Part shown: positions 9,661-32,070 of the stretch, piece after piece | Position numbering within the stretch: the stretch's first letter is position 1 | How the letters are laid out: every line of letters starts with the position of its first letter | NCBI GenBank assembly: GCA_016218815.1 | Contig: JACRCX010000107.1 | Coordinates: 1 to 64,000 of the forward strand | Length of the DNA: 64,000 bases | Direction of reading: 5' to 3' | Origin: Deltaproteobacteria bacterium | Lineage (GTDB): Bacteria > Myxococcota_A > Polyangia > DRWM01 > JAAZOP01 | Program-made: the position numbers and the translations under genes | Notes under the pieces: model-generated | Databases searched by the model: none | What the model saw: the letters and a program-made list of their open reading frames with translations, nothing else | Told to the model about the DNA's origin: nothing

Positions 9661-9799
9661 TCCGGACTTCCGGCGACATTGGGACTCGCGATGTTCGAAG
9701 CACGGGATACCTCGCGGGCCGCAAGCGACCCGGAACGTCCCTGCTTCGTTCCGTGGCAGAATGACCCGGCGCCCCGGCCCTCGGAGGCGTGGCCATGGA

Positions 9800-9990
9800 T
9801 TCGTCGCAGGCAGGTCTTCTGGCTCCCGGATCACCCCCCGGGCCGCGCCTTCCCGTCGCGCTCGTGCGCGGCAGTGGCCTCGTGCGGCCCGGAGTCCCCG
9901 GTCACAGCGGCGGGTCCACCCCCGACTTGCACGGGGTTCCCTTCGCCGGCCGACTCCTGCGGCAGGCGCCCAGTCGGGGCCTGCGACGCG
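9800..9990 (-). promoter_or_regulatory. cobalamin riboswitch (AdoCbl/B12 aptamer)
   Basis: Read on the minus strand, the region has the ordered conserved blocks of the cobalamin aptamer: AAGGGAACCCCGTGCAAGTC, then GGACCCGCCGCTGTGA, GGACTCCGG, GAGGCCACTG, GGGAAGGCGC, and the B12 box GGGAGCCAGAAGACCTGCCT (9808-9827). The order and sequence match the class very closely. It lies downstream of a good promoter and upstream of the lipoprotein/BtuB/propeller operon, so corrinoid binding should repress uptake. The expression platform is not obvious; about 280 bases separate the B12 box from the chosen start codon. Confidence 0.93.
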
Positions 9991-9996
9991 GGACGA

Positions 9997-10025
9997 GGAG
10001 TACCGCGTGCGGGTCGGGGTGTCAA
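9997..10025 (-). promoter_or_regulatory. sigma-70-type promoter of the B12 uptake operon
   Basis: On the minus strand, TTGACA (10025-10020), a 17-base spacer and TACTCC (10002-9997) lie just upstream of the riboswitch aptamer, placing transcription start near 9990. The -35 is a perfect consensus. Confidence 0.6.
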
Positions 10026-16588: not shown

Positions 16589-17563
16589 GTGACGACGGAA
16601 CGAAAGCGGACTTCGACGACACGGCGCGCGCGACCGCGCAAGGGCGGCGCGGGCTCGCCGGCCTTGTTCCTCACGGGCGTGTGCCCGAACGAATGCCGGT
16701 TCTGCTTCGAGCAGAGCGAGAACGCCACGCGGTACGTCCGCGACAAGGAGGAGGTGCTCGCAGCGATCGAGTCGCTCCGGGCCGCCGGCGCCGGCTCGGT
16801 CGATCTCATCGGCGGCGAGCCGCTGCTCCACCCCGACTTCGCGGCCATCGCCCGCGCCGCCGTGGGGGCCGGGCTGCGCGTCAACGTCACGACCAACGCC
16901 CTTGCCCTGGCCGACCGCGCGTTCGCGCAGAAGGTCCTGCCGCTGCTCGACGCCGTGATCGTCTCGATCCACGCCGGCGACGCGCGCGCCTACCGCGCCC
17001 TCACCCGCAACGAGTCCGGTTTCGCCACGCTGCGCGAGGCGCTGCGCATGCTGCGCCGGATCGCGTCCGGCACCCGCGTGATGTTCAACACCACGCTCAC
17101 GCACCGCAGCCTGGGCACGCTCGAGGGGATCCTCGCGCTCGTCGCGCCGTTCCGGGGGGCCCGCTGGGACCTCACGAACCCGTTCCCGCTGGGCGGTGCG
17201 AGGGACGACTACGCCGCAATCGCCCCGCGGATCGGAGAGGCCGCGCGGGCCTTCGCCGGACTCGTCCCCAGGGCCCTGGCGGCCGGCGTCGTCGTCCGCT
17301 TCTCCTTCTTCCCCGCCTGCGCCTTCGGCTACGCGACCGAGCACAGCAACGACGTGGCGGAGCCGGACCGGGCGACCGGGTACCGCGTGGACCACACGCT
17401 GAATCCCCAGCATCCGGACGACCTCCTGTTCCGGCGCGCGTTCGGCCGGCCCTGCCGGACGTGCCGGCTGCGCCGCGACGGGACGTGCTTCGGCGTGCCG
17501 CAGGCGTACCTCGACGCGTTCGGCGACGCCGATCTGCGACCGCCCGGCAAGGAAGCTCCGTGA
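16589..17563 (+). CDS. radical SAM protein
   Basis: 324 residues from a GTG with GGAGG about 11 bases upstream. CPNECRFC places cluster ligands at Cys32, Cys36 and Cys39; DLIGGEPLLHPDF is the canonical GGE motif and VNVTTNAL, VSIHAGD match later barrel strands. The C-terminus carries CRTCRLRRDGTCFGVP, a further three-cysteine group that may hold an auxiliary cluster. Small size and architecture resemble SPASM-like peptide-modifying or MoaA-type enzymes, but no specific family is recognised. Coupled to the next gene by GTGA. Confidence 0.85.
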   Translation: MTTERKRTSTTRRARPRKGGAGSPALFLTGVCPNECRFCFEQSENATRYVRDKEEVLAAIESLRAAGAGSVDLIGGEPLLHPDFAAIARAAVGAGLRVNVTTNALALADRAFAQKVLPLLDAVIVSIHAGDARAYRALTRNESGFATLREALRMLRRIASGTRVMFNTTLTHRSLGTLEGILALVAPFRGARWDLTNPFPLGGARDDYAAIAPRIGEAARAFAGLVPRALAAGVVVRFSFFPACAFGYATEHSNDVAEPDRATGYRVDHTLNPQHPDDLLFRRAFGRPCRTCRLRRDGTCFGVPQAYLDAFGDADLRPPGKEAP

Positions 17564-19110
17564 GGGTCCTCTTCGTCTGGTTCAACTTCGATTGCCCGAT
17601 CGGCTTCAGCCACGGCCTGGCGGTACTGTCGCACGAGCTGAAGGCGGCGGGTCACTCGGTCGGGCTGCTGCACATCAACGAGGCGATGGGGATGCCGTGG
17701 AATCCATCATCCATCGTGCGAGCGATTCTGCGCGAGCATCCCGACATCGTTGGTTTCTCCTTCGGAACGAACCACGCGTGGGCCGCGCGGGAGCTGGCCG
17801 CTGCGGTGAAGCGCGCCCTCCCCGGCACCGCGCTCGTCTGCGGCGGGATCCACGCCACGATCGTCCCGGAGGAGGTCGCCGCCTGGGAAGGGGTTGACCT
17901 GGCGTTCGCGGGGGAGGCCGACGACCATCGGCTGTGCGCGATCGTCGAGCGACTGGGCAAGGGCTCGGTGCCCGTCGCCTCGCCCGGCGTGTGGACCAGG
18001 GGCCCGCGCGGCGTGCGCGGCAACCCGATGCCGCCGCCCGTGGACCTGGCGGCCGCGCCCCGCCCCGCCGACCTCGACCTGTTCGACCACCGGCGCATCC
18101 TCGAGCTGAAGCGCGGGTATGCCGACGCGATCAGCGGGCGAGGCTGCGCCTACCGTTGCACCTACTGCCACAACCAGCTCCTGCGCTCGCGCTACCTCCG
18201 CGACCTGGGATGCCCCAGGGCCGGCGACCTGGGCTACGTCCGCAAGCGTTCGGTCGACGACGTCATCGGCGAGCTGGCGGGGATGCAGCAGCGCCACGGC
18301 AAGCGGATCAAGGTCTTCTCCTTCACCGACGACATGTTCATCACGGAGAAGAAGTGGTTCAACGACTTCCTCGAGGCGTACCGCGCCGCGTTCGCCCAGC
18401 CGCTGGTCTTCTGCTCGACCGTCCACCAGATCGACGACGAGGTGGCACGGCGGGCGGCGGAGGCGGGCGTGTACATGGTGCGGCTGGGCGTCGAGAGCGG
18501 GAGCCCGCGGATCCGCCGCGAGGTCCTGGGGCGCCCCGGGTCGAACGACACGATCCGCCGGGCGGTCGGCGCGCTGAAGGCGGCCGGGGTGAACGTGCTG
18601 ACCTTCAACATGCTCGCCATCCCCGGGGAGCGGATGAGCGACGTGTGGGCGACGTTCCGTTTTGCGGCGGAGCTGCGGGCCGACGCGGTGCAGATCTCGG
18701 TTTTCTGGCCGTACCCGCACACGGCGCTGTACGAGCTGTGCCGGACGCGCGGGTTGTTGACCGAGCGCGTCGCGGTGCGCGGCAACTACCTGAGCGTGAG
18801 CCCCCTGCGCTGGCCCGCCGCGCGCGAGCGCTTCTACGACCGCATCCGTGCCTTCTACGCGGCGGCGCTCAACCGCTTCCTTCGCGGCCCCGGCCGGACG
18901 CGCTTCGGGGCCGTGCTGCGCGACATGGCCGCGATGCCGGACGAGGAGTGGGCCGCCGGCGGCGCCCGCGCGCTCGTCGCCCACGCCCGGCGGCTCGAGA
19001 AGGACCTCGGGCGGCGCGGCGGCGCGCTGTACACGACGCCGTTCCCCGAGCGCCCCGACATCCTGCTGCTCCGCGATCCGGACCGCAGGCGGCCGTTGAT
19101 CAACGTGTGA
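17560..19110 (+). CDS. B12-binding-type radical SAM protein
   Basis: 516 residues from a GTG overlapping the previous stop (17560-17563). Residues 1-165: cobalamin-binding fold (RVLFVWFNFDCPIG..., DIVGFSFGTNHAW, TALVCGGIHATIVPEE, LAFAGEADD). Radical SAM motif CAYRCTYC at Cys196/200/203, followed by FSFTDDMFI, VRLGVESGSPRIRREVLGR and NMLAIPGE, typical of BchE/HpnJ-like class-B enzymes. Last gene of the 13196-19110 operon. Substrate unknown; the family modifies lipids, tetrapyrroles and peptides. Confidence 0.87.
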   Translation: MRVLFVWFNFDCPIGFSHGLAVLSHELKAAGHSVGLLHINEAMGMPWNPSSIVRAILREHPDIVGFSFGTNHAWAARELAAAVKRALPGTALVCGGIHATIVPEEVAAWEGVDLAFAGEADDHRLCAIVERLGKGSVPVASPGVWTRGPRGVRGNPMPPPVDLAAAPRPADLDLFDHRRILELKRGYADAISGRGCAYRCTYCHNQLLRSRYLRDLGCPRAGDLGYVRKRSVDDVIGELAGMQQRHGKRIKVFSFTDDMFITEKKWFNDFLEAYRAAFAQPLVFCSTVHQIDDEVARRAAEAGVYMVRLGVESGSPRIRREVLGRPGSNDTIRRAVGALKAAGVNVLTFNMLAIPGERMSDVWATFRFAAELRADAVQISVFWPYPHTALYELCRTRGLLTERVAVRGNYLSVSPLRWPAARERFYDRIRAFYAAALNRFLRGPGRTRFGAVLRDMAAMPDEEWAAGGARALVAHARRLEKDLGRRGGALYTTPFPERPDILLLRDPDRRRPLINV

Positions 19111-19620
19111 GCTGGTTGCCGACGCGCGAGTCGGGGTCGGCTTCCGGGATGTCCGTGACCATCGAGCAGGACGCGCTTCCTCGAACGTGGTTCACGGCGG
19201 GGACCAACATCGAGTTGTGGGGACCGGCCAGAACGAGAACGTACCGGGCCGTGCCTTTCGATTTGCTGCCCGCACTGCCCGAGCATCGTGGCGGACCGCT
19301 GGACTGGCGGGGTCCGGTGGCAGAGTTTGTGCTGCGGGCCGTAACAGGCCGCCGACCGGGGGAGCAGACATCTCGACGAACAGGGCAGGTTCCGGCGCAC
19401 GCAAGCGCAGCGTCAACTCCGGCCTTCGACGTTGAGCTTCCGACTCATCGGCACGGTTCGCGTGGCCGGGGTCCCTGGTCTCTGGATGGCTGCGTGCTAG
19501 ACTCACCGGTGCGACAGGTTCCAGCGGACGGAGGCGGCCCGGATGTGCGAAACGAGAGCCGGGGTCCAGATCAGCCGCGGCGAGGACGTCGGCGATGCCG
19601 CGGGCGAGGAGGATCGTCCG
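19111..19620 (+). other. intergenic region, possible gene remnant and weak promoter
   Basis: 510 bases with no complete gene recognised. From an ATG at 19149 about 65 codons read like protein (FTAGTNIELWGPARTRTY, LLPALPEHRGGPLDWRGP) with lower third-base GC than neighbours, then dissolve into the frame of the next gene, so a decayed gene is possible. TGCTAGACT near 19495-19503 is an extended -10 that could serve the Kazal gene. Confidence 0.35.
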
Positions 19621-21015
19621 ATGGCGCGGGAACAGCGCCACTACAGCGCGTGGATCGCGGCGTGGGTGCTGGTCTCGCTGTGCTGTTCGGTCGAGGGTCC
19701 GGCCAGCGGTCCCGACGCGGCCGGGGACACCGCAGGGGACACGCCAGGGGACGCTGCGGACGGCACCGACGACGACGCGGAAGGGTGCGACGACGCGGCG
19801 TGCAGCGCTTCGTGCATGTACAGCGAGCACCTAGGCATGTGCGTCAACGGGAGTTGCGACTGCTGCTGTCCGTGGGGGACGAACGACTGCTACGAACCGG
19901 GCGACTGCCGCGGCGACATGGTCTGTGACCTGTACGACTGCGGCACCACGTCGGGAACGTGCATTGCCGTGCCGGCCACCTGCCCTGCCACATGGTCACC
20001 GGTCTGCGGCTGCGACTCGACGACGTACGCAAACGATTGCGAACGACAACGAGCCGGCGAACCACCGCGAGGGATGGGCGTCTGCCGGAACTGGGGGGCT
20101 TGCCGGTTCGACGACCCGGCGGGCGAGCCCGGCCTGGTCTGCGACGTGCGTTCTTGCGCCTCCGAGGATGGGACATGGGTCCGCCTCCAGGCCGAGTGCC
20201 CGTCGTTCTGGGCGCCGGTCTGCGGGTGCAATGGCACGACCTACGCCAACGACTGCGAGCGGATGGTGGCCGGGGCGGCCGGGCGCGACGCAGGACCCTG
20301 CGGAAGCCGAGCGGCGTGCGGAGCGGCGGGCGACCCGCCGTGCCCGGCGGACGAGGACTGCGACCGCAGGGGGTGCGAGGAGGGCTCCGCCGGGTCGTGC
20401 GTCGTCCTCCCCGCGACCTGCCCGGACGACGGACCGACCGTCTGCGGCTGCGACGGCACGACCTACGTCAGCGACTGCGAGCGAATCCGCGCCGGCGTCG
20501 CCCGGCGGTCGGTCGGGCAATGCCCCACGGTCGACACCTGCGATGCAGACGGGAACTGCGCGGACCGTACCTGGTGCAACAGGTCGGTCTGCGATGACCT
20601 TGCCGGTTTCTGCATCGGACCGGCGGACTTCTGTCCGGACGAGTGGGATCCCGTCTGCACCTGCTCGGGCCGGACGTTCGTCAACGCCTGCGAGGTCTGG
20701 CCTGCGAACTACTGGCGTTCGCAGGGCTACTGCTCCTCCGGCGTGCCGTGTTCGGGACCGTCCGGTCGGTCCGACGAGTGCGGCATGTACGAGGTTTGCG
20801 ACGTGCAGGGGTGCGCCTCGACCGAAGGGATGTGCGTCCGGATGCCGGAGGCGCGTTTTGTGGAGTGGTTCCCCTTGGGACCGTGCCCCGGGATCTGGGA
20901 CCCGGTCTGCGGCTGCGACGGCGTGACCTACTTCAACGACTGCGAGCGGATCGCGCGGCGCGCCGCCCTGGCGTCCCGCGAGCCGTGCCCCGCGGACTCC
21001 GGCGGAGCGCCGTAG
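19621..21015 (+). CDS. lipoprotein with five Kazal-type inhibitor domains
   Basis: 464 residues from the ATG at 19621 (GAGGAGG 8-9 bases upstream) which gives a lipoprotein signal AWVLVSLCC; an ATG at 19543, also with GGAGG, would add 26 residues before it. After an acidic linker there are five Kazal-like modules with the signature P-V-C-G-C-(D/N)-G-T-T-Y-x-N-D-C-E-R, near residues 130, 200, 280, 350 and 430. Kazal domains inhibit serine proteases; such multi-domain lipoproteins may protect the surface from proteases, perhaps including the secreted protease at 10068 (speculation). Confidence 0.85.
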   Translation: MAREQRHYSAWIAAWVLVSLCCSVEGPASGPDAAGDTAGDTPGDAADGTDDDAEGCDDAACSASCMYSEHLGMCVNGSCDCCCPWGTNDCYEPGDCRGDMVCDLYDCGTTSGTCIAVPATCPATWSPVCGCDSTTYANDCERQRAGEPPRGMGVCRNWGACRFDDPAGEPGLVCDVRSCASEDGTWVRLQAECPSFWAPVCGCNGTTYANDCERMVAGAAGRDAGPCGSRAACGAAGDPPCPADEDCDRRGCEEGSAGSCVVLPATCPDDGPTVCGCDGTTYVSDCERIRAGVARRSVGQCPTVDTCDADGNCADRTWCNRSVCDDLAGFCIGPADFCPDEWDPVCTCSGRTFVNACEVWPANYWRSQGYCSSGVPCSGPSGRSDECGMYEVCDVQGCASTEGMCVRMPEARFVEWFPLGPCPGIWDPVCGCDGVTYFNDCERIARRAALASREPCPADSGGAP

Positions 21016-21146: not shown

Positions 21147-21422
21147 TCACCCGTTTCGTGAAGGAGGGCCGTCGCCGTCTCGGCCGAGTTTCTCGTGGAT
21201 CCAGAGCGCCACGAGAGCGGAGGGCGGAATCCCTCGACGCCGGGCAAGCCGCTTGAGTAGAGCCGCCGTGCGCTGGTCAATCCGAACCGGCAACGCGAGC
21301 CGCCTCGGACGCACCGCATCCAATCGAACCTCCGTCAGCTCTTCCTGATCGAGATCCTCGACGTCGTGTCGAGCCCAGAACTCGTGCTCTTCGTCTTCGG
21401 ACCGGAACTTGGGCAGCTTCAT
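21147..21422 (-). CDS. ribbon-helix-helix protein, CopG/BrnA antitoxin-like, without toxin
   Basis: 91 residues. MKLPKFRSEDEEHEFW at the start matches the CopG-antitoxin/BrnA-type family (PF12441-like), and LALPVRIDQRTAALLKRLARRRGIPPSALVALWIHEKL is a ribbon-helix-helix DNA-binding segment. In toxin-antitoxin pairs a BrnT-like toxin precedes it; here the gene upstream is instead a double radical SAM enzyme whose stop overlaps this start (ATGA, 21422-21419), and no toxin gene is seen. It may have become the operon's regulator, or be a solitary antitoxin. Confidence 0.75.
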   Translation of the reverse strand: MKLPKFRSEDEEHEFWARHDVEDLDQEELTEVRLDAVRPRRLALPVRIDQRTAALLKRLARRRGIPPSALVALWIHEKLGRDGDGPPSRNG

Positions 21423-23764
21423 GACGTTCCTCCCGCCAGCCCCGCGAACCGCGGATCCGGCCGGACGCCGTCGCGCAGGAGGCGTTTCCAGATGCCGCCG
21501 CACGCCACGCGCTCCGTGCAGCCGTCGCATTCGGGGACGTAGTCCGACAGCCGCGCCAGCATGCGGCCGAAGTTCACGCGCGAGCCGTGAGCGAAGATCA
21601 TTTCCGTGGACCGCTTGGAGCCCGTGAACTCGACCCGGCCCTCCAGCCGCGGCGCCAGGCACGGCGCCAGATTGTGCACCGCGAGTCGCGCCGGGCCCGC
21701 GGCCGACACCGCGCGGGCGATCGCACGGCGCAAGGGGGCGAGGGGCGGGAGGCGGAAGTCCGCGCGCGCCGCCAGTCCGAGCGGCACGGGGAACAGCAGG
21801 TTGACCGCCGTGCAGCCCAGCCGGGAGAGCAGGCGCACCGTCCCGGCCGTGGCGTCCAGGTTCTGCGGCACGAGCACGACGTTGCCGAACAGCTCCAGTC
21901 CCGTCGCACGCAGGTTCCCGATCCCCCGCACGGCCTCGGCGAAGCTCCCCGGCGTGCCGGTGAGGGTGTCGTGCAGCTCCGGCCCTTCGCCCAGGAGGGT
22001 GACGGCGGCGGCGTCCAGGCCGGCGGCGCGCAGGTCGCGGGCCAGGGCCGGGTAGGCGGCCATCCGGGCGTTGGTCACCAGCGTCACCCGCTCGAGGCCC
22101 GCCGCCTTCGCCGCGCCGATCAGCCGCGGCAGCTCGCGGTAGAGCGTCGGCTCGCCGCCGTCGATGTCGAGCTGGCGGGCGCCGCGCTTCCTCGCGTCGC
22201 GCAGGAGGGACACGATGCGCCGCTCCGGCGCGTCCCGCTTCGGCATCGTGTCGGTGCAGCAGAAGACGCAGCGGCTGTTGCAGCGGTACGAAGGCGCCAG
22301 GAGCACCTTGCGATGCCGCGCCTGCTCCAGGCGCCTGGCCAGCGCGTCGGCGAAGCGCCGCAGATCGCGCGGCCCGAAGGACGGCGTCCGCAAGACGCTG
22401 CGGCCGGTGAACAGCGCGCCGACCTCCAGCTCGGCCGTGTCCCTGCGCATCGCGCCGGACGCCCTCGCCTCCCGGTACAACGGCGTGCCGGGCACCGGCG
22501 TGGCGAACTGCAGGCGCGGCTCGGCCCCGAACGACTCGAACAGCGTCGCCGCGAGCTCCAGCGTGCGGTTGATCTGCGGGCGGGTCTCTCGCGGGAACCC
22601 GATCACGAAGTGCACGCGCGGCGGCATCCCATGCCGCGCGAACAGGCCGGCGGCGCGGACGACGGCCGACGGCTCGAGGCCCTTGTGGATGATGCGGGAC
22701 ACGACGACCGGGTCGCCGGACTCCGCCGACAGCGACGGGGCCGCGACGCCGGCCCGGGCCATGGAGCGCACCGCCGGCTCGGAAAGCCGATCGGCCCGGA
22801 AGCCGTTGGGCGCCTCCCACGCCGTTCCGGCGGCGGCCAGCCCCCGCGCGATGGTCTCGAAGCGCCGCCGCCCGGCGTTGATGCAATCGTCCATGAAGAA
22901 GAAGCGTTCGACGCCCCACTTGCGCCGCAACGCCGCGACCTGCCGCAGCACGGCGCCGGCCGAGCAGGCGCGCCAGCGGTGGCCGAACCCCGTGGCGCAG
23001 AACACGCAGCGGAACGGGCACCCGCGGCTGGTCACCAGCGGCAGGAAACGCCCGCCTTGCGGCACTTCGTGGATCAGATCCCGGCTCGCACCCTCGAGCT
23101 GCAGCCGGAAGTACAGCTCCAGGTCCAGCAGATGGAAGGCCGGAACCAGGTCGTCCAGATCTTCGGCGAGCGGACCGTGGACGGGGCCGCGACGGATCCC
23201 GCCCTTGGCGCGCCAGACGGCGCGCGGCAGGCCTTCGAACGGCCGGCGACCCGCCAGCGCCGCCAGCAGCCCAGGCAGCGCCGACTCGCCCTCTCCCAGA
23301 CACACGGCGTCGAGGCGAGGGGCGCGGCGCAGCACCTCGGCCGCGTCGTACGGGATGTAGTCCAGTCCGCCGACGTACGTGTCGCCCAGGACCAGCGCGG
23401 CCCGGGGGTGGCGCCGCGCCAGCGCCGCCAACAGCTCCGGGATCCGCGTGCGCGCGAGCCGGCCGGGGTGGGCGAACATCGAGGCGCCGACGACGATCAC
23501 GTCGGGCGCGGAACGCACTTCCTCGGCAACCTGCCGCGGCTCGGCCCCCACGGCGATGCCGCGCGGACCGACGGTGATCGGGAGGCGGCGCCCCGTCCCG
23601 AGGAACGCGTCCACCACCTGGACCCGCGCGCCCAGGCGCTCGACCTGGCCGGCGGCGTACAGGAGCCCGAGCGACGCGAACGTCGGGTAGTTGACGAACT
23701 TCGGCGGCAGGACGATCGGCGGGTGGACGAACGCGACCGAGATGCCGTCCAGCCCGGTTGCCAT
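21419..23764 (-). CDS. tandem (double) radical SAM protein with B12-binding-type N-terminus
   Basis: 781 residues with two complete radical SAM domains. Residues 1-200: cobalamin-binding-like fold (VAFVHPPIVLPPKFVNYPTF, VVGASMFAHPG, AALVLGDTYVGGLDYIPYDA, VCLGEGES). Domain 1: CPFRCVFC at Cys249/253/256, FFMDDCIN, LSAESGDP, HFVIGFPRET. Domain 2: CNSRCVFC at Cys495/499/502, LDIDGGEPTLY, LVTNARM, VVLVPQNL, and a C-terminal CDGCTERVACGG cysteine group. Domain 1 resembles class-B enzymes, domain 2 MoaA/SPASM-like ones, so this is a fusion of two different types. It lies 18 bases after the HxsB-type gene. A paralogue is at 26102. No characterised homologue is known to me. Confidence 0.85.
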   Translation of the reverse strand: MATGLDGISVAFVHPPIVLPPKFVNYPTFASLGLLYAAGQVERLGARVQVVDAFLGTGRRLPITVGPRGIAVGAEPRQVAEEVRSAPDVIVVGASMFAHPGRLARTRIPELLAALARRHPRAALVLGDTYVGGLDYIPYDAAEVLRRAPRLDAVCLGEGESALPGLLAALAGRRPFEGLPRAVWRAKGGIRRGPVHGPLAEDLDDLVPAFHLLDLELYFRLQLEGASRDLIHEVPQGGRFLPLVTSRGCPFRCVFCATGFGHRWRACSAGAVLRQVAALRRKWGVERFFFMDDCINAGRRRFETIARGLAAAGTAWEAPNGFRADRLSEPAVRSMARAGVAAPSLSAESGDPVVVSRIIHKGLEPSAVVRAAGLFARHGMPPRVHFVIGFPRETRPQINRTLELAATLFESFGAEPRLQFATPVPGTPLYREARASGAMRRDTAELEVGALFTGRSVLRTPSFGPRDLRRFADALARRLEQARHRKVLLAPSYRCNSRCVFCCTDTMPKRDAPERRIVSLLRDARKRGARQLDIDGGEPTLYRELPRLIGAAKAAGLERVTLVTNARMAAYPALARDLRAAGLDAAAVTLLGEGPELHDTLTGTPGSFAEAVRGIGNLRATGLELFGNVVLVPQNLDATAGTVRLLSRLGCTAVNLLFPVPLGLAARADFRLPPLAPLRRAIARAVSAAGPARLAVHNLAPCLAPRLEGRVEFTGSKRSTEMIFAHGSRVNFGRMLARLSDYVPECDGCTERVACGGIWKRLLRDGVRPDPRFAGLAGGTS

Positions 23765-23782
23765 GCCCGTTCCGTGACGGTC

Positions 23783-25330
23783 TCAGCGCTTGGCCGAGCG
23801 CCGGCGGACCGTCCTGGACTTCCCGCGCGGAGCCGCCCCCGGCACCTCGACGTTGCGTCCCTGGTAGACGCTCGAGCGGTCGCGGGACTCCGTCCAGCGC
23901 AGCAGCAGCTCCTCCATCCCGGGCTCGGAGAGCCGGCGGAACAGGTGGTCGAACATCCCCATCTGGATGCGGCAGCGGTCGTTGCCCGGGCAGCGCGCGA
24001 CGAGATCGCCCTGCTCGACGTAGTTGTACACCGGGCAGACGCCGCAGTACGGCGCGTACGCGCAGTCGGCGCAGCCGGGCAGGCACTCCAGGCACGAGGC
24101 GACGCAGAGCGACTGGACGCCGGGATGGGCGGCGATTTCGGCGTACGAGTTCTTGTGCACGTCGCCGATGCAGAACAGGTCGTCGCCCATCGCCCCGACC
24201 ATGCGGCCCTCGTCGCAGGTGTAGACCCGGCCGTCGTAGTTGTAGGCGAGCTGTCCGATGCCGGCGCCGCAGGGCGAGCGCAGGTCGGCGTAGTTCGGGT
24301 CCTTGTCGGTCAGGATCCGCGTGAGCATGAGCGAGGCCATCTTCTCCATCATCTCGACGCCCTGCCGGTTCAGCTCGATGATGTAGTCGAGGGCCTCCAG
24401 GTAGAACCGGAGGAACTCGTCGGCGGTGTAGCCCTCGCGCTGCCAGATCCGCTTGCCCATGCCGAAGGGGTTGAGCGGGCGGAGGTGGATGACCTTCTGG
24501 CCCAGCTTCACGTACTGGTCGACGATCGCCTTGGGCTGCGAGAGCGAGCTGCGGGAGACCGTGACGAGCGCATTGACGTAGGCCAGGCCCGGGTCGAGCT
24601 TCCGCTTGCGATAGGCGGCGGCGAACGCCTTCATCGTGCGCAGGGTGCGGGTGAGGCTGTGGCCGCCGGTCAAGCGGCGGTTGTGGTCGTGCAGCGCGGC
24701 GGGGCCGTCGATCGAGGTGCAGACCATGACGCCGTTGTCGACGAGGAAGTCGAGCTGCGACGCGTCGAGGGTGGTGAGGTTGCTGACGAGGCTGAACCAG
24801 AGGTTGCGTTCGCCGGAAGCGTTCCGGCAGCGCGCCTCCTCGACGACCCAGCGCAGGACGTCGAAGTTCATTCCCGGCTCGCCGCCCTGGAACTCGATCG
24901 TCAGGTCCGGCGACGGGCTCTGGAAGATCACGTCCAGGACGCGTGCCGCCGTCTCGAGGCTCATGTCGTAGCCGGCGCGTCCGGAGGGCTGGCGGCTGGC
25001 ATGGCAGTAGATGCAGCCGTGGTTGCAGCGCAGGGTGAGGATCAGGATGTGCAGTCCGGGTCCAGTGAAGACGTGGTGGCTCCGCTCGCGCACCCGCGCC
25101 GCCAGCTCGGCCTCGGTGTCCTTGCCGCGGATCATCCCCTTCCGGGCCAGCTCCCGCGACGCCCGCTTCCCCGGCGCGAGCCTCCCCGCCATCAGGTCGT
25201 CGAACTCGCCGCGGTCCAGCCACGCGTGGTCGCCGGCGTCGTTGGTCGCCAGGATCCGGCCGTCCAGCTCGCGCCAGCGCAGCGGCACCAGGCGCTTGTT
25301 GCGCACGCTCCCCGCACGTCGGGTCGTCAT
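23783..25330 (-). CDS. hxsB: HxsB-type radical SAM/SPASM peptide maturase
   Basis: 515 residues. Starts with a PqqD-like leader-binding-type region (RWRELDGRILATNDAGDHAWLDRGEFDDLM), then radical SAM motif CNHGCIYCHASRQ at Cys102/106/109, LTIEFQGGEPGMNF, VSNLTTLD, TSIDGPAALHDHNR and, from about residue 320, a SPASM-type region: SPCGAGIGQLAYNYDGRVYTCDEGRM, CLECLPGCADCAYAPYCGVCPV. The order and wording (GPGLHI..TLRCNH, FQGGEP, DEGRM, GCADCAY.PYCG) match the His-Xaa-Ser system maturase HxsB (TIGR03978). HxsB normally works with HxsC on HxsA; neither is visible here. ATG overlaps the stop of the small HxsD-like gene upstream (25330-25327). Confidence 0.8.
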   Translation of the reverse strand: MTTRRAGSVRNKRLVPLRWRELDGRILATNDAGDHAWLDRGEFDDLMAGRLAPGKRASRELARKGMIRGKDTEAELAARVRERSHHVFTGPGLHILILTLRCNHGCIYCHASRQPSGRAGYDMSLETAARVLDVIFQSPSPDLTIEFQGGEPGMNFDVLRWVVEEARCRNASGERNLWFSLVSNLTTLDASQLDFLVDNGVMVCTSIDGPAALHDHNRRLTGGHSLTRTLRTMKAFAAAYRKRKLDPGLAYVNALVTVSRSSLSQPKAIVDQYVKLGQKVIHLRPLNPFGMGKRIWQREGYTADEFLRFYLEALDYIIELNRQGVEMMEKMASLMLTRILTDKDPNYADLRSPCGAGIGQLAYNYDGRVYTCDEGRMVGAMGDDLFCIGDVHKNSYAEIAAHPGVQSLCVASCLECLPGCADCAYAPYCGVCPVYNYVEQGDLVARCPGNDRCRIQMGMFDHLFRRLSEPGMEELLLRWTESRDRSSVYQGRNVEVPGAAPRGKSRTVRRRSAKR

Positions 25331-25587
25331 GGATTCACCAGCAGACAGCTCAAGGCGTAGTTGCCGAACTCGTCGGGCAGCCGCTCGGCCGCGTCCGGGG
25401 ACACCTTGGAGAAACGGACGAGGTGACAGCGGCCCGAGCGGCGCACTTCGATCGCGGCCAGGCCCTCGAACGCCCGGCGCGCCCGCTCGATCGCCGCATC
25501 GCTGTAGACCTCGGCATCCAGCCTCAGCTCGGCCGGCTTGGTACCGCTACTTCTTCGCGCGCTTGGTCGTCTTGCGCTTTTCCCCAT
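25327..25587 (-). CDS. short HxsD-like protein
   Basis: 86 residues. After a basic N-terminus, LRLDAEVYSDAAIERARRAFEGL and DEFGNYALSCLL echo the HxsD pattern (YS..A....A...F, then EF.N.LL), but the protein stops soon after, lacking the usual final helix. Its start lies 41 bases inside the preceding HxsD-like gene and its stop overlaps hxsB. It may be a second, divergent HxsD-type partner, or conceivably the peptide substrate. Similarity is by eye. Confidence 0.6.
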   Translation of the reverse strand: MGKSARRPSARRSSGTKPAELRLDAEVYSDAAIERARRAFEGLAAIEVRRSGRCHLVRFSKVSPDAAERLPDEFGNYALSCLLVNP

Positions 25588-25999
25588 GCTTCTCCTCCCA
25601 GGGCACGGCGATGCCCAGGGGATCCTCGAGGTAGTCCAGGCACGAGGCGTCTTCGGCCGCCGGAGCGGCCGCGACGGCCTCCGCCGGCTCGGCCGAGAGC
25701 AGCGCCCGCCCGACGATCACCGCCCGGAGCTGGTCGGTCCGCTCGGCGACCTGGTGCCGCACGAGCTGGTTCACCAGCTCGTTGTGGAACTCCTCGCCCA
25801 GTCCCAGCAGCACTTCCTCGTCCAGCGGCGACTTGCCCTTGAGTCGCACGGCGAGCCGCCGTCCCGGGCGCCGTTCGAGCTGCACATAGCAGCGCTCCAG
25901 GAAACGGTAGGCGGCGGCGAGCCCGACGGGCCGCGGGAAGACTCCCTCGTCCAGCACCACGTTGACCGCGTTCGCCTGTCGATCGACCTTCGGATCCAT
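25547..25999 (-). CDS. hxsD: HxsD-like His-Xaa-Ser system protein
   Basis: 150 residues. VNVVLDEGVFPRPVGLAAAYRFLERCYVQLER, RLAVRLKGKS, EEFHNELVNQLVRHQVAERTDQLRAVIVGRAL follow the HxsD family pattern (TIGR03976, named for a LLNDYLWRE-type motif): a short strand, a helix with A-x-x-F, then EF.N.LL...R..VA..T..LR. A C-terminal Lys-rich tail (about 115-150) is extra. HxsD is a small partner of unknown function in His-Xaa-Ser peptide modification. First gene of the minus-strand operon 25999-21147, divergent from the double radical SAM gene at 26102. Confidence 0.65.
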   Translation of the reverse strand: MDPKVDRQANAVNVVLDEGVFPRPVGLAAAYRFLERCYVQLERRPGRRLAVRLKGKSPLDEEVLLGLGEEFHNELVNQLVRHQVAERTDQLRAVIVGRALLSAEPAEAVAAAPAAEDASCLDYLEDPLGIAVPWEEKHGEKRKTTKRAKK

Positions 26000-26071
26000 G
26001 TTGCTCGTTCCCTCTCGCTCGCGGACCCGTTCCGTCCGCCGAAAAAGGCAGTTTGTCGGCGGTGCGCCGGG

Positions 26072-26101
26072 TTGTCAAGCGAGGTGGCCGCATGCTATGG
26101 A
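26072..26101 (+). promoter_or_regulatory. weak candidate promoter in divergent region
   Basis: TTGTCA, 18-base spacer, TATGGA directly before the ATG at 26102. If used, the transcript would begin inside the first codons and translation might start at the GTG at 26108. The 102-base gap must also hold the promoter of the hxsD-like operon. Confidence 0.25.
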
Positions 26102-28426
26102 ATGCCAGTGGCCGTCGCCGACAACAGGCCCGCCTCCCCCCACGCCGTCGTTCTCCTCCCGCCGCTGCTCCTGTCGCGCCACTTCGTCGACGACCCGTGG
26201 CTGACGCACCTGGGCGCCTACCAGGCGGCGTCCGTGCTGCTCCGCCGCGGGTGGCGCGTCGAGGTCGTCGACGGCTTCGCTCGCCGCAGCGCCGCGCTCG
26301 TGCGCCGCGGCGAGCGGGCGTGGCTGGGCGAGCCCGCGCGGGACTACCTCCGGCGGCTTCGCGGCCTGCGCGCCGACCTTGTCGTCGTCGCCGGCAGCCC
26401 CTTCCTCACCGTCTCGCCCGGTCGCGGCTGGCTCGCGCGCCTCGTCGTCGCGGTGCCCGCGGCGGCGGGCGTCCTGGCCTACGCCGACATGGTCGTCGGC
26501 GGGATGCACTACGTCGAGTACGACGGCGAGGAGCTGCTGGCGTCCGCCCCGCGGCTCGACCTGGTCCTGCGCTACGAGTGCGAGCCGCTGCTCGAGCGCG
26601 TGGCGGCGGCGGTCGAGGCCGGAACGGCGACGTCGCGGGGAGTCCTGGAGAACCGCGTCCCCTTCCCGCTCGACAAGCTGCCCCTCCCGGCGTGGGAGCG
26701 GATGGACCTGCCGGCGTCCTTCGCCTTCCTGCGGCGCGTGCTGGGGACGCGCTGGCGGCCTGGGCCGTTCCCGCCCGAGCCCGCCGAGACCCTGCCCGTC
26801 GTCACCGCCCGCGGATGCCCGCACGGCTGCGTCTTCTGCTCGAAGAATCCCGGCCTGCCCGAGCCGCGGCGGCAGTACCGCGCGGTGCCCTGGGCGCGCC
26901 TGGAGCGCGCCATCGGGCGCTGGGTGCGCACGATGGGCGTGCGGCGGCTGGTGGTGCTGGACGAGGTGGCGAACCTGCGCGAGGAGCGGTTCGAGGCGCT
27001 GCTGGGGCTGGCGGAGCGGCGCGGGCTGCGGCTGGAGTTTCCCAACGGGCTGCGCGCCGACCGCCTGCGTCAGGAGCACGTCCGCCGGCTCCGCCCGCTG
27101 ACCAGCGCGCTCAAGGTCTCGCTGGAGAGCGCCAGCGGGCGCGTGCAGCGCCACGTCATCGGCAAGAACCTCGAGCCGGCGGCGGTGGAGCGGGTGGCGG
27201 AGTGGTGCGCGGCCGCGGAGCTGCCGCTTTTCGTGCACGGGATCATCGGCATTCCGGGCGAGCGCCGGGGCGAGATCGTGCGGACGGTCCGGGCCCTGGC
27301 CGGGCTGCACCGCCGCCACGGCGCCGTGCCGCTGCTCCAGTTCGCCACGCCCATTCCGGGAACGGCGATGGCGCGGCGCTGCCCGCCCGCGCCCGGCGCG
27401 ATCGCCGATTTGCACGAGGCGTTCCAGCATGGGGGGGTGACGACGAGCGAGTTCGACCCGGCGTTCCTGCGCCAGGCCGCGGACGTCCTGGCCTTGCACG
27501 TGGCCACGGCACGGGAGCGCAAGGTCATCGTCAACCTCACCTACCGCTGCAACAACCACTGCGTGTTCTGCGCCGTGGGCGACCGGCCCGCGCGCGACGC
27601 CCGCACGGCCGACGTCGTCGAGGCGCTGCGGCGCCACCGCGACCGCGGGTTCGACCTGCTGGACATCGACGGCGGCGAGCCGACGCTCGACCCCGAGCTG
27701 CCCGCGGTCGTCTCCGCCGCGCGCGCGATGGGCTACCGCCGGATCACGGTCGCCACCAACGGACGGCTGCTGTCCTATCCCTGGTTCGCCGACGCGCTGG
27801 TGCGCGCGGGCGTCATGGAGGTGCTGGTTTCGCTGCACGCGCCCGAGGCGCCGCTGCAGGAGCGTCTGACGCGGACGGCGGGGAGCTTCGAGCAGACGGT
27901 GGCGGGGATCCGGAACGTGCTCGCGGCGGGCGGCGGCGGCGTCGACGTGGGCGTCAACACCACCGTCGTCCGCGACAACGTGGCGGCGCTGCCCGCGATG
28001 GCGGGATTCCTCGCCGGGCTGGGCGTGGGGCACTGGACGGTCCAGGTGGTCACGCCGTTCGGGCGGGCCCGCGCGGCCCACGTGCCGTCCGCGCGCGCGC
28101 TGCGCGAGAACCTCTCCGCGGTCCTCGACCGCGCCCCCGCCGGCATGCGCATCCAGATCATCAACTGCCCGCCGTGCCTGCTGCCGGGGCACGAGTCCGC
28201 CGCGCTGACGGACTTCGGCAAGGCCGAGCGCGCGATGGTGTTCGTCGGCGAGTCGGGCGTGAACCTCCAGGAGTGGCTGGCGGGCAAGCGGCGCCGCGAC
28301 GCGCGCTGCCGCGACTGCGTGCACGCCGTGCTCTGCCCGGGCTTCTACCGCTTCGAGGGCGAGCGGCGGGGGCCGCGCACCTCGCGCAGCGGCACGAATG
28401 CGGCATCGCCCCGAACGGCGAGGTAG
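26102..28426 (+). CDS. tandem (double) radical SAM protein, paralogue of 21419-23764
   Basis: 774 residues from the ATG at 26102. Residues 1-200 form a cobalamin-binding-like domain (VVLLPPLLLSRHFVDDPW, VVVAGSPFLTVSPG, DMVVGGMHYVEYDGEE, LVLRYECEPLLE). First radical SAM domain: CPHGCVFC at Cys239/243/246, VVLDEVANL, KVSLESASGRVQRHVIGKNLEP, HGIIGIPGE. Second: CNNHCVFC at Cys483/487/490, LDIDGGEPTLD, VATNGRLLSY, LVSLHAPEAP, and C-terminal CRDCVHAVLCPGFY. Domain order equals that of the protein at 21419, also adjacent to the hxs-type genes, so one ancestral fusion probably duplicated. The last 82 bases overlap the convergent gene. Function unknown. Confidence 0.85.
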   Translation: MPVAVADNRPASPHAVVLLPPLLLSRHFVDDPWLTHLGAYQAASVLLRRGWRVEVVDGFARRSAALVRRGERAWLGEPARDYLRRLRGLRADLVVVAGSPFLTVSPGRGWLARLVVAVPAAAGVLAYADMVVGGMHYVEYDGEELLASAPRLDLVLRYECEPLLERVAAAVEAGTATSRGVLENRVPFPLDKLPLPAWERMDLPASFAFLRRVLGTRWRPGPFPPEPAETLPVVTARGCPHGCVFCSKNPGLPEPRRQYRAVPWARLERAIGRWVRTMGVRRLVVLDEVANLREERFEALLGLAERRGLRLEFPNGLRADRLRQEHVRRLRPLTSALKVSLESASGRVQRHVIGKNLEPAAVERVAEWCAAAELPLFVHGIIGIPGERRGEIVRTVRALAGLHRRHGAVPLLQFATPIPGTAMARRCPPAPGAIADLHEAFQHGGVTTSEFDPAFLRQAADVLALHVATARERKVIVNLTYRCNNHCVFCAVGDRPARDARTADVVEALRRHRDRGFDLLDIDGGEPTLDPELPAVVSAARAMGYRRITVATNGRLLSYPWFADALVRAGVMEVLVSLHAPEAPLQERLTRTAGSFEQTVAGIRNVLAAGGGGVDVGVNTTVVRDNVAALPAMAGFLAGLGVGHWTVQVVTPFGRARAAHVPSARALRENLSAVLDRAPAGMRIQIINCPPCLLPGHESAALTDFGKAERAMVFVGESGVNLQEWLAGKRRRDARCRDCVHAVLCPGFYRFEGERRGPRTSRSGTNAASPRTAR

Positions 28427-29277
28427 TCGGCGCGGGGACCCAGGCAGCGGTTCCGCGAGGAGCACGCCGCGCACCCCGGGAGGTACGCGCCGCCCTCCAT
28501 CGGCGTGCGCGCCGCGAGGAACGGCGGCCCGCCCGGAGGCACGACCAGCACGTTCCAGTCGCGCGCATGCCGGTACCGGTCGCGGTAGGCCGGGCGCAGC
28601 ACGCACGGCGGCGTGTGCAGGCTCGACGCCCCGACCCCCAGCTCGGTCGCCGTGTCGAACGCCGCCTCGAGGTGCGGGGCCACCTCGCGCAGGTCGGGGA
28701 GCAGCTCGGTCAGCTCGTCCCCTTCGAGCCCGTGCCGCGAGAAGAGCCGGAAGAGGAATGCTTGGGCCCCCCGTTTCGCGAACTGCTCCACGATCCGCGG
28801 CAAGTGCCGCGCCGAGCGCGTCGTGATCATCACGTCGGCCTCGACCCGCGTTCCCGCCGCCGCCAGGACCCGCACCCCCTCGACCAGGCGCGCGAACGAG
28901 CCCGGCACCTGCGTGATCGCATCGTGCCCGCGGGCATCGACGCCCTTGACGGAGACGGAGACCTCCGTCGCGCCCGCCTCCAGGCACGCGCGGGCGAACG
29001 CCGGGTAGGAGAAGCGCATCCCGTTGGTCTGGATGCGGATGCGGCGGTAGCCGAGCGCGCGGGCGCGGGCGACGAGCGGCACGAGGTCCGGGCGCGCCGT
29101 GGGCTCGCCGCCGCCGAACCACGCGCCGCCGATGCGCCGGCGGCGCCCCTCCTCCAGCCATCCGGCGACGTCCTCGGTGGTCATGCCGGGCGATGGGGGA
29201 AGTCTCCGGCCGGTGCAGACGACGCAGCGGCAGTTGCAGCCGAACCAGGGCAGGATTTCGATCCAGGATGGCGGCAC
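28345..29277 (-). CDS. radical SAM protein
   Basis: 310 residues from a GTG at 29277 with GGAGG about 11 bases upstream; an ATG at 29337 would overlap the divergent gene. Motif CNCRCVVC is very close to the start (Cys14/18/21), with an extra Cys at 16. GGAWFGGGEPTARPD is the GGE motif; IRIQTNGMRFS, VSVSVKGVD follow. C-terminal Cys cluster CAACSSRNRCLG could ligate an auxiliary cluster. Tail-to-tail overlap of 82 bases with the double radical SAM gene. Substrate unknown. Confidence 0.75.
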   Translation of the reverse strand: MPPSWIEILPWFGCNCRCVVCTGRRLPPSPGMTTEDVAGWLEEGRRRRIGGAWFGGGEPTARPDLVPLVARARALGYRRIRIQTNGMRFSYPAFARACLEAGATEVSVSVKGVDARGHDAITQVPGSFARLVEGVRVLAAAGTRVEADVMITTRSARHLPRIVEQFAKRGAQAFLFRLFSRHGLEGDELTELLPDLREVAPHLEAAFDTATELGVGASSLHTPPCVLRPAYRDRYRHARDWNVLVVPPGGPPFLAARTPMEGGAYLPGCAACSSRNRCLGPRADYLAVRGDAAFVPLREVRGPRRSPSKR

Positions 29278-29326
29278 TTCGACGCCCACCTCCGGCCCCC
29301 AGGGGGCATGGTACAGTGAGCCGGCG

Positions 29327-30418
29327 ATGAGGAACATCGAGATCAACATCGGCATGGTCTGCAACAACCGTTGCGTGTTCTGCGTGAACTCGCAGGTCAA
29401 CGCGGCGGGCCGCCGGTGGGTCTCCAAGGAGCGGGTGGTGGCCGAGATCGACCGGGCCGCGGCCCGCGGCTACCGGGCGCTGGGGTTCCTCGGCGGCGAA
29501 ATCACGTACTACCCGCACGCCGTCGAGGTGATCCGGCTCGCGCGCGAGAAGGGTTTCGTCCGCATCTCCCTGTGCACCAACGGTCGCCGGCTGGCCCGGA
29601 AGGAGATCCTCGACGCGCTGATCGAGGCCGGCGTGACTCGTTTCGCGGTATCGATCCACAGCCACGAGGCGGACGTGGAGGACCGGATCTGCGGCCGCAA
29701 GGGGGCCTTTGGCGAGAAGCTGGCCGGGATCGACAACCTTGTCCGGGCCGCCGCAGAGGGGCACCTGCGCGACGGCGTCTCGCTCAACTCCTGCATCCAC
29801 GGCCTGAACTGGAACCGCCTGACCGAGATGGCGCGGTTCTTCCGCGCGCGGGGCATTTCCGACATGCGCTTCAACTTCCTGCGGCCCGAGCACCAGGCGG
29901 AGGGGAACCGCGAGCTGGTGCCGCGGCTGTCGGACGCGTTGCGAGAGGTGCTGCGGCTGGTCGTCGAGAACCACCGGCGCCTGCGCATGACGATCACCTT
30001 CGGCGACATTCCCGTCTGCCTCTGGCCGCCGTCGTTCCTGGCCAACGCCGCGTTCGCGCGCCGTTACATCGGCGAGTTCCGCGACCTGGACACGGACGTC
30101 TCCGAGTTCCGCGACGCGGTCGTGCCGCACCGCTTCAACTGGCGGCGCACGCGCTCCGCCACGCTCAAGGCGCGCCTCCCGGTCTGCGGCGCCTGCGGCG
30201 CGGCCGGGATCTGCGAGGGGCCCTGGACGAAGTACGTCGCGCTCCACGGCGCGGACGAGTTCCGCGCTGTCGCGCTTGCCAAGGGCGCGAAGGAGGCAAA
30301 GGGCGCCAAGGGGAGGGAAGTTCGCGCAAAGGGCGCAAAGGACCGCAAAGGACGCCAAGAGGGTGGGTCGGGGCGGGCGAGGGCGCGAGGGAACGCCGCG
30401 AGACGGAAGCCGGCATGA
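29327..30418 (+). CDS. radical SAM protein with repeat-derived C-terminus
   Basis: 363 residues. CNNRCVFC at Cys12/16/19, then FLGGEITYYP (GGE followed by IT rather than P), LCTNGRRLA, VSIHSHEADVEDRICGRKGAFGEKLAGIDNL, a stretch typical of uncharacterised TIGR-type radical SAM proteins. C-terminal CGACGAAGICEGPWTKY is an additional cysteine group. The final 45 or so residues are Lys/Ala/Arg-rich and derive from GCAAAGG-type repeats (30285-30362); the domain itself seems complete without them. TACAGT nine bases before the ATG could be a -10. Coupled to the next gene by ATGA. Confidence 0.8.
   Translation: MRNIEINIGMVCNNRCVFCVNSQVNAAGRRWVSKERVVAEIDRAAARGYRALGFLGGEITYYPHAVEVIRLAREKGFVRISLCTNGRRLARKEILDALIEAGVTRFAVSIHSHEADVEDRICGRKGAFGEKLAGIDNLVRAAAEGHLRDGVSLNSCIHGLNWNRLTEMARFFRARGISDMRFNFLRPEHQAEGNRELVPRLSDALREVLRLVVENHRRLRMTITFGDIPVCLWPPSFLANAAFARRYIGEFRDLDTDVSEFRDAVVPHRFNWRRTRSATLKARLPVCGACGAAGICEGPWTKYVALHGADEFRAVALAKGAKEAKGAKGREVRAKGAKDRKGRQEGGSGRARARGNAARRKPA
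30285..30362 (+). repeat. GCAAAGG/GCCAAGG short-unit repeat inside a coding 3' end
   Basis: Irregular repeats of AAGGGCGC, GCAAAGG and CGCCAAG encode a Lys/Gly/Ala-rich tail. This kind of AAGG-rich repeat is dispersed in many environmental genomes. It appears to have been inserted in the 3' end of the radical SAM gene and now sits next to the ATGA junction. Confidence 0.55.
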
Positions 30419-32070
30419 CGCAACGCCGCCACCCGAGCGGAAGGGTCGTCCCGGGCTCCCCCGAGCCGCGGGTTTCGGCGAGCGGACACGCGGGGCCGGG
30501 GCATCTCGCGTTCCGCGCGGTGCGCCGCCTGGCGGCGTTCGACATCGCCGACTGTCCGTGGCGCAAGCCTGGCAAGAAGCCGCTGCGCGGGCCGGACCAC
30601 GTCGTGACGATGGCCGGAGGGCCCGCGCGCCTGTGGCGGCTCGAAGGCCGCGCGCTTGCGCCCGTGTTGCTCCACGCCAAGCTCGTGCACGGCCAGGTCT
30701 GGCTGGCGGCGGGCGGGGCGAGGCCCGTGCCGCTGGCGCTCGCGGCCCCGTGCGACGCGTGTCACCGGCTGCACGAGTGCGCCGCGTGCTTCCTGCCGCT
30801 CGAACGGGCCACCGGCCGCAGCGGGCGGCAGGACTCCGATCAGCCCACGGGGGTCGTCGTGCCCGTGCGCGAGGTCTGGCTGCTCGACGACGGGGCGGCG
30901 ATGCCGCAGCGACCGCCGCCGGCCGAGCCGGTCGAGGTGCTGCGGGGGCTGCGCCGGCGCGGACTCGTGCCGTTGGGCTACTCGCTGCCTTCGGAAGGGC
31001 GCCGGAGCGGCTTCCGCGCCGAGGTCATCGCGGCGGGCGCGGCCGACAACCCGCTGGGGGCGCGCCGGCACGAGGGAATGTCGCTGCAGGTGACCGAGTC
31101 GTGCATGTGCCGCTGCCTGATGTGCAACCTCGTCGGCTACTTCAAGCGTCCGCACATGCCGCTGCGTGAGGTGCTGCGGGTGATGGAGGAGGCCGCGCTG
31201 CTGGGCGTGCGGATGCTGGACGTGTTCGGCGGCGAGGTGACGCTGCGGCGGGACATCTTCGACCTGGTGCGCCACGCGCGATGGCTGGGCATGGAGTGCA
31301 TGTTCATCACGACCGGGTACTACGTGACGCCGGCGTATGCGCGGAAGCTGCGCGCGGCGGGGGTGAACCGGATCGTGGTGTCGCTCGACGGCTCGCGGCC
31401 GGAGATCCACGACTCGATCCGCCAGCTCCCGGGGATGTTCGAGCGGGCGGTCCGGGCGCTGAGGGCGCTGGCGGCGACGAAGGGCCTCGAGGCCTTCGCG
31501 AGCACCGTGATTCTCGAACAGAACCTGCACGACCTGGTGGACCTCGTGCGCCTCAGCGGGCGCTTGGGGATCCGGTTCCACGAGTTCTTCCTGCCGATCA
31601 GCGGGCCGGTAGCTTCAACGCTGCCTCGCTGGCCGTCGCCCGGGCAGGCGCGCGAGCTGCTGGAGACAATCGCCCCGGCGCTCGAGCGTGAGGCGGCGCG
31701 GTGGGGAGTCCAGGTGGACTTCCGGCCGGAGTTCCGGTCGTGGCCGGCGCCGCGGCGCAGGGCGATCGAGCTGATTTCCTCGGGCTGCTACAACACGCAC
31801 CATGCGAGCCGGGCGGGGCGCTGCCTGGCGGCCGGCTGGAACCTCTTCGTGACGGTGACCGGCGACGTCTACCCCTGCGACATGCCCTCGCTGATCCGCA
31901 AGGGGGGCGGGCTCGGCAACCTCCACGACGCGACGCTCCTGGACATCGTCACCGGACCCGCGATGGCGCGCTTCGAGCGCGACGCGGGACGCCACGACGG
32001 CTGTCGGATGTGCGTGGGTCGGTACGAGGCGGTGTGCGAGCCGGCGGCCCCTACTGCGACCCGGGGATGA
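30415..32070 (+). CDS. radical SAM/SPASM-like protein with Cys-rich N-terminal extension
   Basis: 551 residues from an ATG overlapping the previous stop. The first 220 residues are unlike standard radical SAM domains: VTMAGGPARLWRLEGRALAPVLL, and a likely zinc- or cluster-binding CDACHRLHECAACF at Cys113/116/122/125. Radical SAM motif CMCRCLMC at Cys230/234/237; LDVFGGEVTLRRD, ITTGYYVTP, VSLDGSRPEIHDSIR. From about 460 a SPASM-like region: CYNTHHASRAGRC, VTVTGDVYPCDMPS, GCRMCVGRYEAVC. SPASM domains hold auxiliary clusters in peptide-modifying maturases, so a peptide or protein substrate is plausible. The last 20 bases overlap the convergent lipoprotein gene. Confidence 0.82.
   Translation: MTQRRHPSGRVVPGSPEPRVSASGHAGPGHLAFRAVRRLAAFDIADCPWRKPGKKPLRGPDHVVTMAGGPARLWRLEGRALAPVLLHAKLVHGQVWLAAGGARPVPLALAAPCDACHRLHECAACFLPLERATGRSGRQDSDQPTGVVVPVREVWLLDDGAAMPQRPPPAEPVEVLRGLRRRGLVPLGYSLPSEGRRSGFRAEVIAAGAADNPLGARRHEGMSLQVTESCMCRCLMCNLVGYFKRPHMPLREVLRVMEEAALLGVRMLDVFGGEVTLRRDIFDLVRHARWLGMECMFITTGYYVTPAYARKLRAAGVNRIVVSLDGSRPEIHDSIRQLPGMFERAVRALRALAATKGLEAFASTVILEQNLHDLVDLVRLSGRLGIRFHEFFLPISGPVASTLPRWPSPGQARELLETIAPALEREAARWGVQVDFRPEFRSWPAPRRRAIELISSGCYNTHHASRAGRCLAAGWNLFVTVTGDVYPCDMPSLIRKGGGLGNLHDATLLDIVTGPAMARFERDAGRHDGCRMCVGRYEAVCEPAAPTATRG

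Follow-up and report, generated by a model that had tools for sequence, protein, structure and literature searches.

His-Xaa-Ser systems have been known from bioinformatics for more than a decade, and the canonical HxsABCD system was reportedly described by Haft and Basu in 2011. The canonical system has in common with the locus considered here HxsB, HxsD, a precursor with His-Xaa-Ser repeats and more than one radical SAM enzyme; the present locus differs in having neither the HxsA of model TIGR03979 nor the HxsC of model TIGR03977. Closer to it is the HxsA4/HxsC4/HxsD-like system, which is already known from curated models (NF038313, TIGR03978, NF038315, and NF038332). HxsB, the HxsD-like protein, and HxsA4 all score above the curated cut-offs here, and the gene order in relatives is the same. 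However, HxsA4 lies 44 kb from HxsB, no HxsC4 above the cut-off was found (best tested protein 150.7 bits against 500), and extra conserved radical SAM partners are present for which there is no model of their own. A literature search found no paper identifying an Hxs product, nor its biochemistry, nor the function of HxsA, HxsB, HxsC, or HxsD.

Related chemistry is represented by the maturases of triceptides (three-residue cyclophanes), in whose cross-links both His C2 and Ser C-beta are known to take part (PMC11002830). HaaB, YhhB, MscB, and OscB are radical SAM/SPASM enzymes, like the HxsB class, and act on aromatic-x-x triplets; the HxsB of this locus is nevertheless far below the family models of triceptide maturases (FxsB 34, YhhB 39, and GrrM/OscB 49 bits).

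The window is the whole stretch of DNA that was analysed, 64,000 nucleotides long; the contig to which it belongs (C61, 113,840 bases) was also read past the window end. A preliminary description of the window had proposed a variant Hxs locus, lacking HxsA and HxsC and joined to two double radical SAM proteins. The comparisons reported here lead with good confidence to a different reading: the core in the window belongs to an HxsA4-type His-Xaa-Ser system, for which a maturation pathway is proposed below, and from which HxsA4 and its convergent neighbour (r67332) have been split off by rearrangement.

The HxsB and HxsD Proteins

The HxsB-type maturase and the two HxsD-type proteins named in the preliminary description were borne out by the family models (Table 1). 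The match of HxsB to TIGR03978 spans the full length of the model in a profile search, and the protein shares 70% identity with its counterpart in the same genus and 43-52% with the best sequences of other Myxococcota. Both HxsD and the HxsD-like protein are encoded upstream of HxsB. HxsD, HxsD-like, HxsB, and double protein 1 follow each other on one strand, either overlapping or separated by 18 bases, and from this arrangement they look like a single operon.

Table 1: Features of the Hxs core, its precursor, and the surrounding radical SAM genes (window positions; C61 marks contig positions).
Feature	Position	Strand	Remarks
HxsC4-like radical SAM protein, presumed member	13268-14230	+	NF038332 82.3 bits, cut-off 500
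Radical SAM protein	16664-17563	+	Reciprocal hits 122-129 bits
B12-binding radical SAM protein, presumed member	17560-19110	+	PF02310 and PF04055; L273 911 bits
Double radical SAM protein 1	21419-23764	-	Paralogue of protein 2; 18 bases downstream of HxsB
HxsB, SPASM-type radical SAM maturase	23783-25330	-	TIGR03978 515.8 bits, cut-off 370
HxsD-like small protein	25327-25587	-	NF038315 62.4 bits, cut-off 41; overlaps both neighbours
HxsD	25547-25999	-	TIGR03976 44.8 bits, slightly below cut-off 50
Double radical SAM protein 2	26108-28426	+	Two Radical_SAM domains, two CxxxCxxC motifs
HxsC4-like radical SAM protein	28345-29427	-	NF038332 84.9 bits, cut-off 500; relatives in L078, L101
HxsC4-like radical SAM protein r29327	29327-30418	+	Reciprocal best hits 37-41%, 5 HxsB loci
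Radical SAM/SPASM protein	30520-32070	+	PF04055 and PF13186; membership presumed from position alone
Radical SAM-methyltransferase r67332	C61:67332-69284		Convergent neighbour of HxsA4
HxsA4, 146 residues	C61:69157-69597	-	NF038313 (NCBIfam HxsA4) 66.3 bits, cut-off 55

The AlphaFold2 model of HxsD (mean pLDDT 84) consists of an alpha/beta domain with a long helix and a disordered tail. This C-terminal tail, DDPLGIAxPWEEK, has low model confidence, and D126, L128, I130, and W134 are invariant in the alignment (A2); it is perhaps a docking motif. HxsD was also considered as a PqqD-type recognition element, but the predicted model gives no PqqD-like match. The model resembles, weakly (E about 5e-3), the dimerising Rpb11/Pcc1 folds. 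This likeness and the constant pairing of the two small proteins give rise to the low-confidence idea that HxsD and HxsD-like may form a heterodimeric adaptor.

The HxsA4 Precursor

In the preliminary description no HxsA was seen, and the target was supposed to be encoded elsewhere or to be one of the small proteins of the locus. There is indeed none in the window. However, an HxsA4 above the cut-off is encoded on the same contig beyond the window end, so the claim of an absent HxsA, natural enough from the window alone, does not stand; the target does lie elsewhere, and not among the small proteins of the window. The small open reading frames of the window were rejected as precursors, as the gaps in the locus measure only 18 bases (HxsB to double protein 1) and 108 bases (HxsD to double protein 2). 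At least three consecutive His-Xaa-Ser triplets occur at a sole location of the 7.3 Mb genome (C61:69164-69279) in a pattern search, and HxsA4 is the sole His-Xaa-Ser repeat protein found in it. The model of canonical HxsA has no match in the genome (best 14.2 bits against 121.65).

The HxsA4 gene is preceded by a ribosome-binding-like site. Its product carries a twin-arginine-like segment, TRRDLLSSSWKVALLAAGAALLPRQALA, and terminates in HCS(HGS)12W, that is, HCS, 12 HGS units, and W. The N-terminal part is 43-46% similar to HxsA4 proteins which adjoin HxsB in other genomes, and an HxsA4 fragment is found in a genome of the same genus (G203). The length of HxsA4 proteins varies, and the twin-arginine-like signal is limited to a part of them. 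Common to nearly all of them are a stretch of the leader, for example LPTFKRDAEGMLSRTE or FPKPEKTTEMFLTEKE, and a repeat region that starts with HCS or HAS, continues with HGS repeats, and finishes with a terminal W; the number of repeats ranges from 9 to 59 across loci. A leader motif fits 19 of 21 HxsA4 leaders, whereas shuffled sequences give a mean of 0.5; this result shows conservation and is not an independent test, as the motif was written from the same 21 sequences.

The open reading frame of r67332 extends for 128 bases into the HGS repeat on its antisense strand, and the repeat DNA is open for reading in both directions.

Proposed Maturation of the HGS Repeat

In the proposed pathway, HxsB would bind the conserved leader of HxsA4 in the cytoplasm, perhaps via the HxsD/HxsD-like pair. 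HxsB and its partner radical SAM enzymes, among them the double protein, the families r82767 and r77005 (described below), and others, would then modify one repeat after another of the C-terminal HCS(HGS)nW core. The precursor is probably exported after modification, because a twin-arginine-like signal is present in some species, this one included.

As to the chemistry, the most likely candidate is a three-residue cross-link from His to Ser within the HGS units, a guess that we regard as doubtful; the remaining enzymes would add further changes. Radical SAM/SPASM enzymes are able to join residues i and i+2; examples are bonds from His C2 to C-beta of either Ala or Arg, and from Phe to C-beta of Ser (PMC11002830), and the period of three of the HxS repeat fits this geometry. 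It is possible, though on the unlikely side, that the main role of HxsA4 is to bind metal or to serve as a structural repeat protein, the enzymes building a cofactor or single-residue changes and not cross-links. Such a role would suit a repeat that is rich in His, opens with a single Cys (HCS), and closes with Trp, and HxsB does score with the models of a quinohemoprotein maturase (91.8 bits) and a sulfatase maturase (84.1 bits). Nevertheless, its best non-Hxs models are the peptide maturases PapB (107.8 bits) and nif11 (101.7 bits), and the wide range of repeat numbers is unlike a fixed cofactor site.

Gene Order in Relatives and the Question of HxsC

In a survey of 379 Myxococcota genomes, HxsB was detected in 125 and HxsA4 (E <= 1e-10) in 122, and the two occur together in 117 (p=9e-81, Fisher test ignoring phylogeny). 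The order HxsD, HxsD-like, HxsB is common among 60 HxsB neighbourhoods, 46 of which have HxsD matches, most of these with the HxsD/HxsD-like gene pair; the two-HxsD layout is the normal arrangement in Myxococcota. HxsA4 with HGS repeats is found directly after HxsB in 25 of the 60 loci of other genomes; the preliminary description had itself named an HxsA/HxsC pair just outside the locus in other genomes as speaking against a new variant. Adjacency of HxsA4 and HxsB is common in HxsA4-type systems but does not define them, and it is not seen here.

Among named genomes, the nearest relative (locus L273) has a double protein 91% identical to that of the window and the same layout. Three compact loci (L276, L277, and L293) contain HxsD, HxsD-like, HxsB, HxsA4, a convergent r67332-type gene, and the double protein, the last being 51%, 49%, and 40% identical, respectively, to that of the window. 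On C61, HxsA4 and the convergent r67332 gene remain paired, at their distance from HxsB. As the core is compact and accompanied by HxsA4 in other myxobacteria, with the double protein beside it, the window is read as a rearranged HxsA4-type system, and a rearrangement in its genus would be the simplest reading of the separation, judged from gene order.

It is very improbable that HxsB and HxsD form a new Hxs variant acting on another small protein, with the double proteins in place of HxsC. In favour of such a variant, HxsA4 is not next to HxsB in the genus of the window, and in two further loci (L274 and L275) HxsD, HxsD-like, HxsB, and the double protein are present and no HxsA4 was found within the fetched flank. 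Against it stand the HxsA4 above cut-off on the same contig, the fragment in the same genus, the almost complete lack of space for a small gene in the gaps given above, and the occurrence of the double protein alongside HxsC4.

The absence of HxsC was correctly noted for the window but is not distinctive, since 46 of 50 tested HxsB genomes are without canonical HxsC. With TIGR03977 no canonical HxsC was found here (best 92.7 bits against 267.9); it is above the cut-off in the other 4 of these 50 genomes, and in 3 of the 4 (G341, G372, and G067) an HRSHSS-type canonical repeat lies beside HxsB. HxsC4 has no match at 1e-60 in this genome and is missing at the same threshold from 74 of the 125 HxsB genomes. 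Because the genome is 83% complete, HxsC4 could be absent from the assembly only. The suggestion that the double proteins replace HxsC did not hold: among the genomes with the family, HxsC4 is present too in 49 and lacking in 34, so that the family is not merely an HxsC4 substitute, and the co-presence rules out a simple stand-in.

The Double Radical SAM Proteins

Double radical SAM proteins flank the core on both sides, as first described, each with two Radical_SAM domains and two CxxxCxxC motifs. Their place in the Hxs locus was also confirmed: in a full-length search the family is present in 83 of the 379 genomes, 80 of which have HxsB (p=4e-45, Fisher test ignoring phylogeny). Where both lie on the same contig, they are 1.6-28 kb apart in 15 of 18 genomes and 454-675 kb apart in 3. 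Protein 2 is transcribed divergently from the core, and its true start lies not at 25538 but near 26108, the point from which homologues can be aligned. The two proteins are 34% identical to each other; protein 1, kept at the same place in the sister-species locus (L273), is a second, lineage-specific copy.

In 29 aligned double proteins, C690, C734, C737, C743, and both CxxxCxxC motifs are invariant, and both Cys motifs are likewise invariant across 29-32 sequences. The AlphaFold2 model of protein 2 has a pLDDT of 89.5 and a pTM of 0.87. By Foldseek and profile searches, the first half matches the cobalamin-type (class B) radical SAM enzymes MgmA, AprD4, TsrM, CysS, and TokK (Foldseek E about 1e-16 to 1e-10), whose fold and CxxxCxxC motif it shares, and the second half matches BlsE, SuiB, SkfB, viperin, and PqqE. 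On its predicted structure, the double protein joins a radical SAM fold of the cobalamin type to a radical SAM domain like that of HxsC and SuiB. Unlike class B enzymes, it adds a second, peptide-maturase-like radical SAM domain, and cobalamin binding is only putative: the B12-binding domain PF02310 scores 19.6 bits in protein 1, below the cut-off of 32.1, and a Pfam search gave no such match in protein 2. AprD4 suggests that a cobalamin-type fold can occur without the cofactor.

The double protein is a new conserved family, fused from two radical SAM types and previously without a name. It shares with r82767 and r77005 only partial NCBIfam matches, far below the cut-offs, and an incomplete literature search found no paper on any of the three. 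Relatives of the double protein, r77005, r82767, and r83743 are also found in a locus titled Nanoarchaeota archaeon CSMAG_2465 (L281), and a contig titled as a Klebsiella pneumoniae MAG (L291) carries a double protein; both are probably misassigned myxobacterial contigs.

Radical SAM Genes around the Core

Nineteen genes with a CxxxCxxC motif extend over about 72 kb (C61:13268 to 85140). Five single-domain families of this island, named by their start on C61 (r29327, r67332, r77005, r82767, and r83743), form well-supported clades with genes that adjoin HxsB in other families. Orthologues of r29327 come after HxsA4 in other families (clade support 100/99). The protein at 28345-29427 is not HxsC4 itself, given its low score. 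Weak relatives of the gene at 16664 adjoin HxsA4 in two loci (L145 and L152), and the gene at 17560 keeps the same neighbour in the sister species (L273). For the genes starting at 13268, 30520, 35400, 47518, 50108, and 52442, no HxsB-linked orthologue was found in the HxsB loci compared, and these may be unrelated to the Hxs system. In the tree of HxsC-like domains, in which two rows labelled HxsC4 came from a neighbouring ORF, the families are supported and the deeper forks unresolved. Clustering of neighbouring ORFs was dominated by antisense shadow ORFs of the GC-rich DNA.

Two families are linked to HxsB almost without exception: r82767 and r77005 are each present in 39 of 40 HxsB-positive and 1 of 40 HxsB-negative genomes (p=3e-20 each, Fisher tests ignoring phylogeny), the lone HxsB-negative genome with them (G140) having a weak HxsA4 match. 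The density of island-related radical SAM genes is 1.06 per 10 kb in the vicinity of HxsB, compared with 0.08 for 40 regions placed arbitrarily in the same genomes. It is highly improbable that HxsB lies by chance in a hotspot where unrelated radical SAM enzymes gather, and as regards the double protein, r82767, and r77005 the evidence is strongly against it. In favour of a hotspot, some island genes have long tree branches and no HxsB-linked orthologues, and the neighbouring genes are a mixture. Against it, the density is 13-fold that of random regions, both Cys motifs of the double protein are invariant, and three families show near-perfect presence/absence linkage to HxsB.

This strict linkage indicates that one repeat protein is probably served by at least four radical SAM enzymes. 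That HxsB, the double protein, r82767, and r77005 constitute a conserved team of at least four which densely modifies one HGS repeat protein of Myxococcota is a plausible reading, held tentatively. If true, few radical SAM peptide pathways would be richer in enzymes, and the double protein would represent a type of bifunctional radical SAM maturase new to description. The fusion of cobalamin-type and peptide-maturase-type radical SAM domains in one conserved protein is unusual by itself. Together with a recognisable leader, the three families that are strictly linked to the system make a defined, testable enzyme set, for which sources are the three compact operons (L276, L277, and L293) and the clusters of cultured Plesiocystis, Enhygromyxa, Nannocystis, and Minicystis.

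Other genes were noticed in these regions. A radical SAM family (L149:5636-6610, minus strand) has relatives in 11 HxsB loci and a Tat-signal protein (L132:6423-7253, plus strand) in 9; both may be further Hxs partners. A cobalamin riboswitch (window 9792-9999, minus strand; Rfam RF00174, 68.9 bits) lies upstream of a gene pair at 6852-9523, with a receptor-like protein at 6852-8909, which looks like B12 uptake. Between the radical SAM genes of the window, a secreted Kazal-like repeat protein with many Cys and CPATWSPVCGCDSTTYANDCERQRAG-type units is encoded at 19543-21015 (plus strand). Farther along the contig (C61:75081-82688; L026/L027), island radical SAM genes are interspersed with genes for three secreted, Cys-rich proteins, which have CNGxDDDCDG-type repeats and could be ordinary myxobacterial surface proteins.
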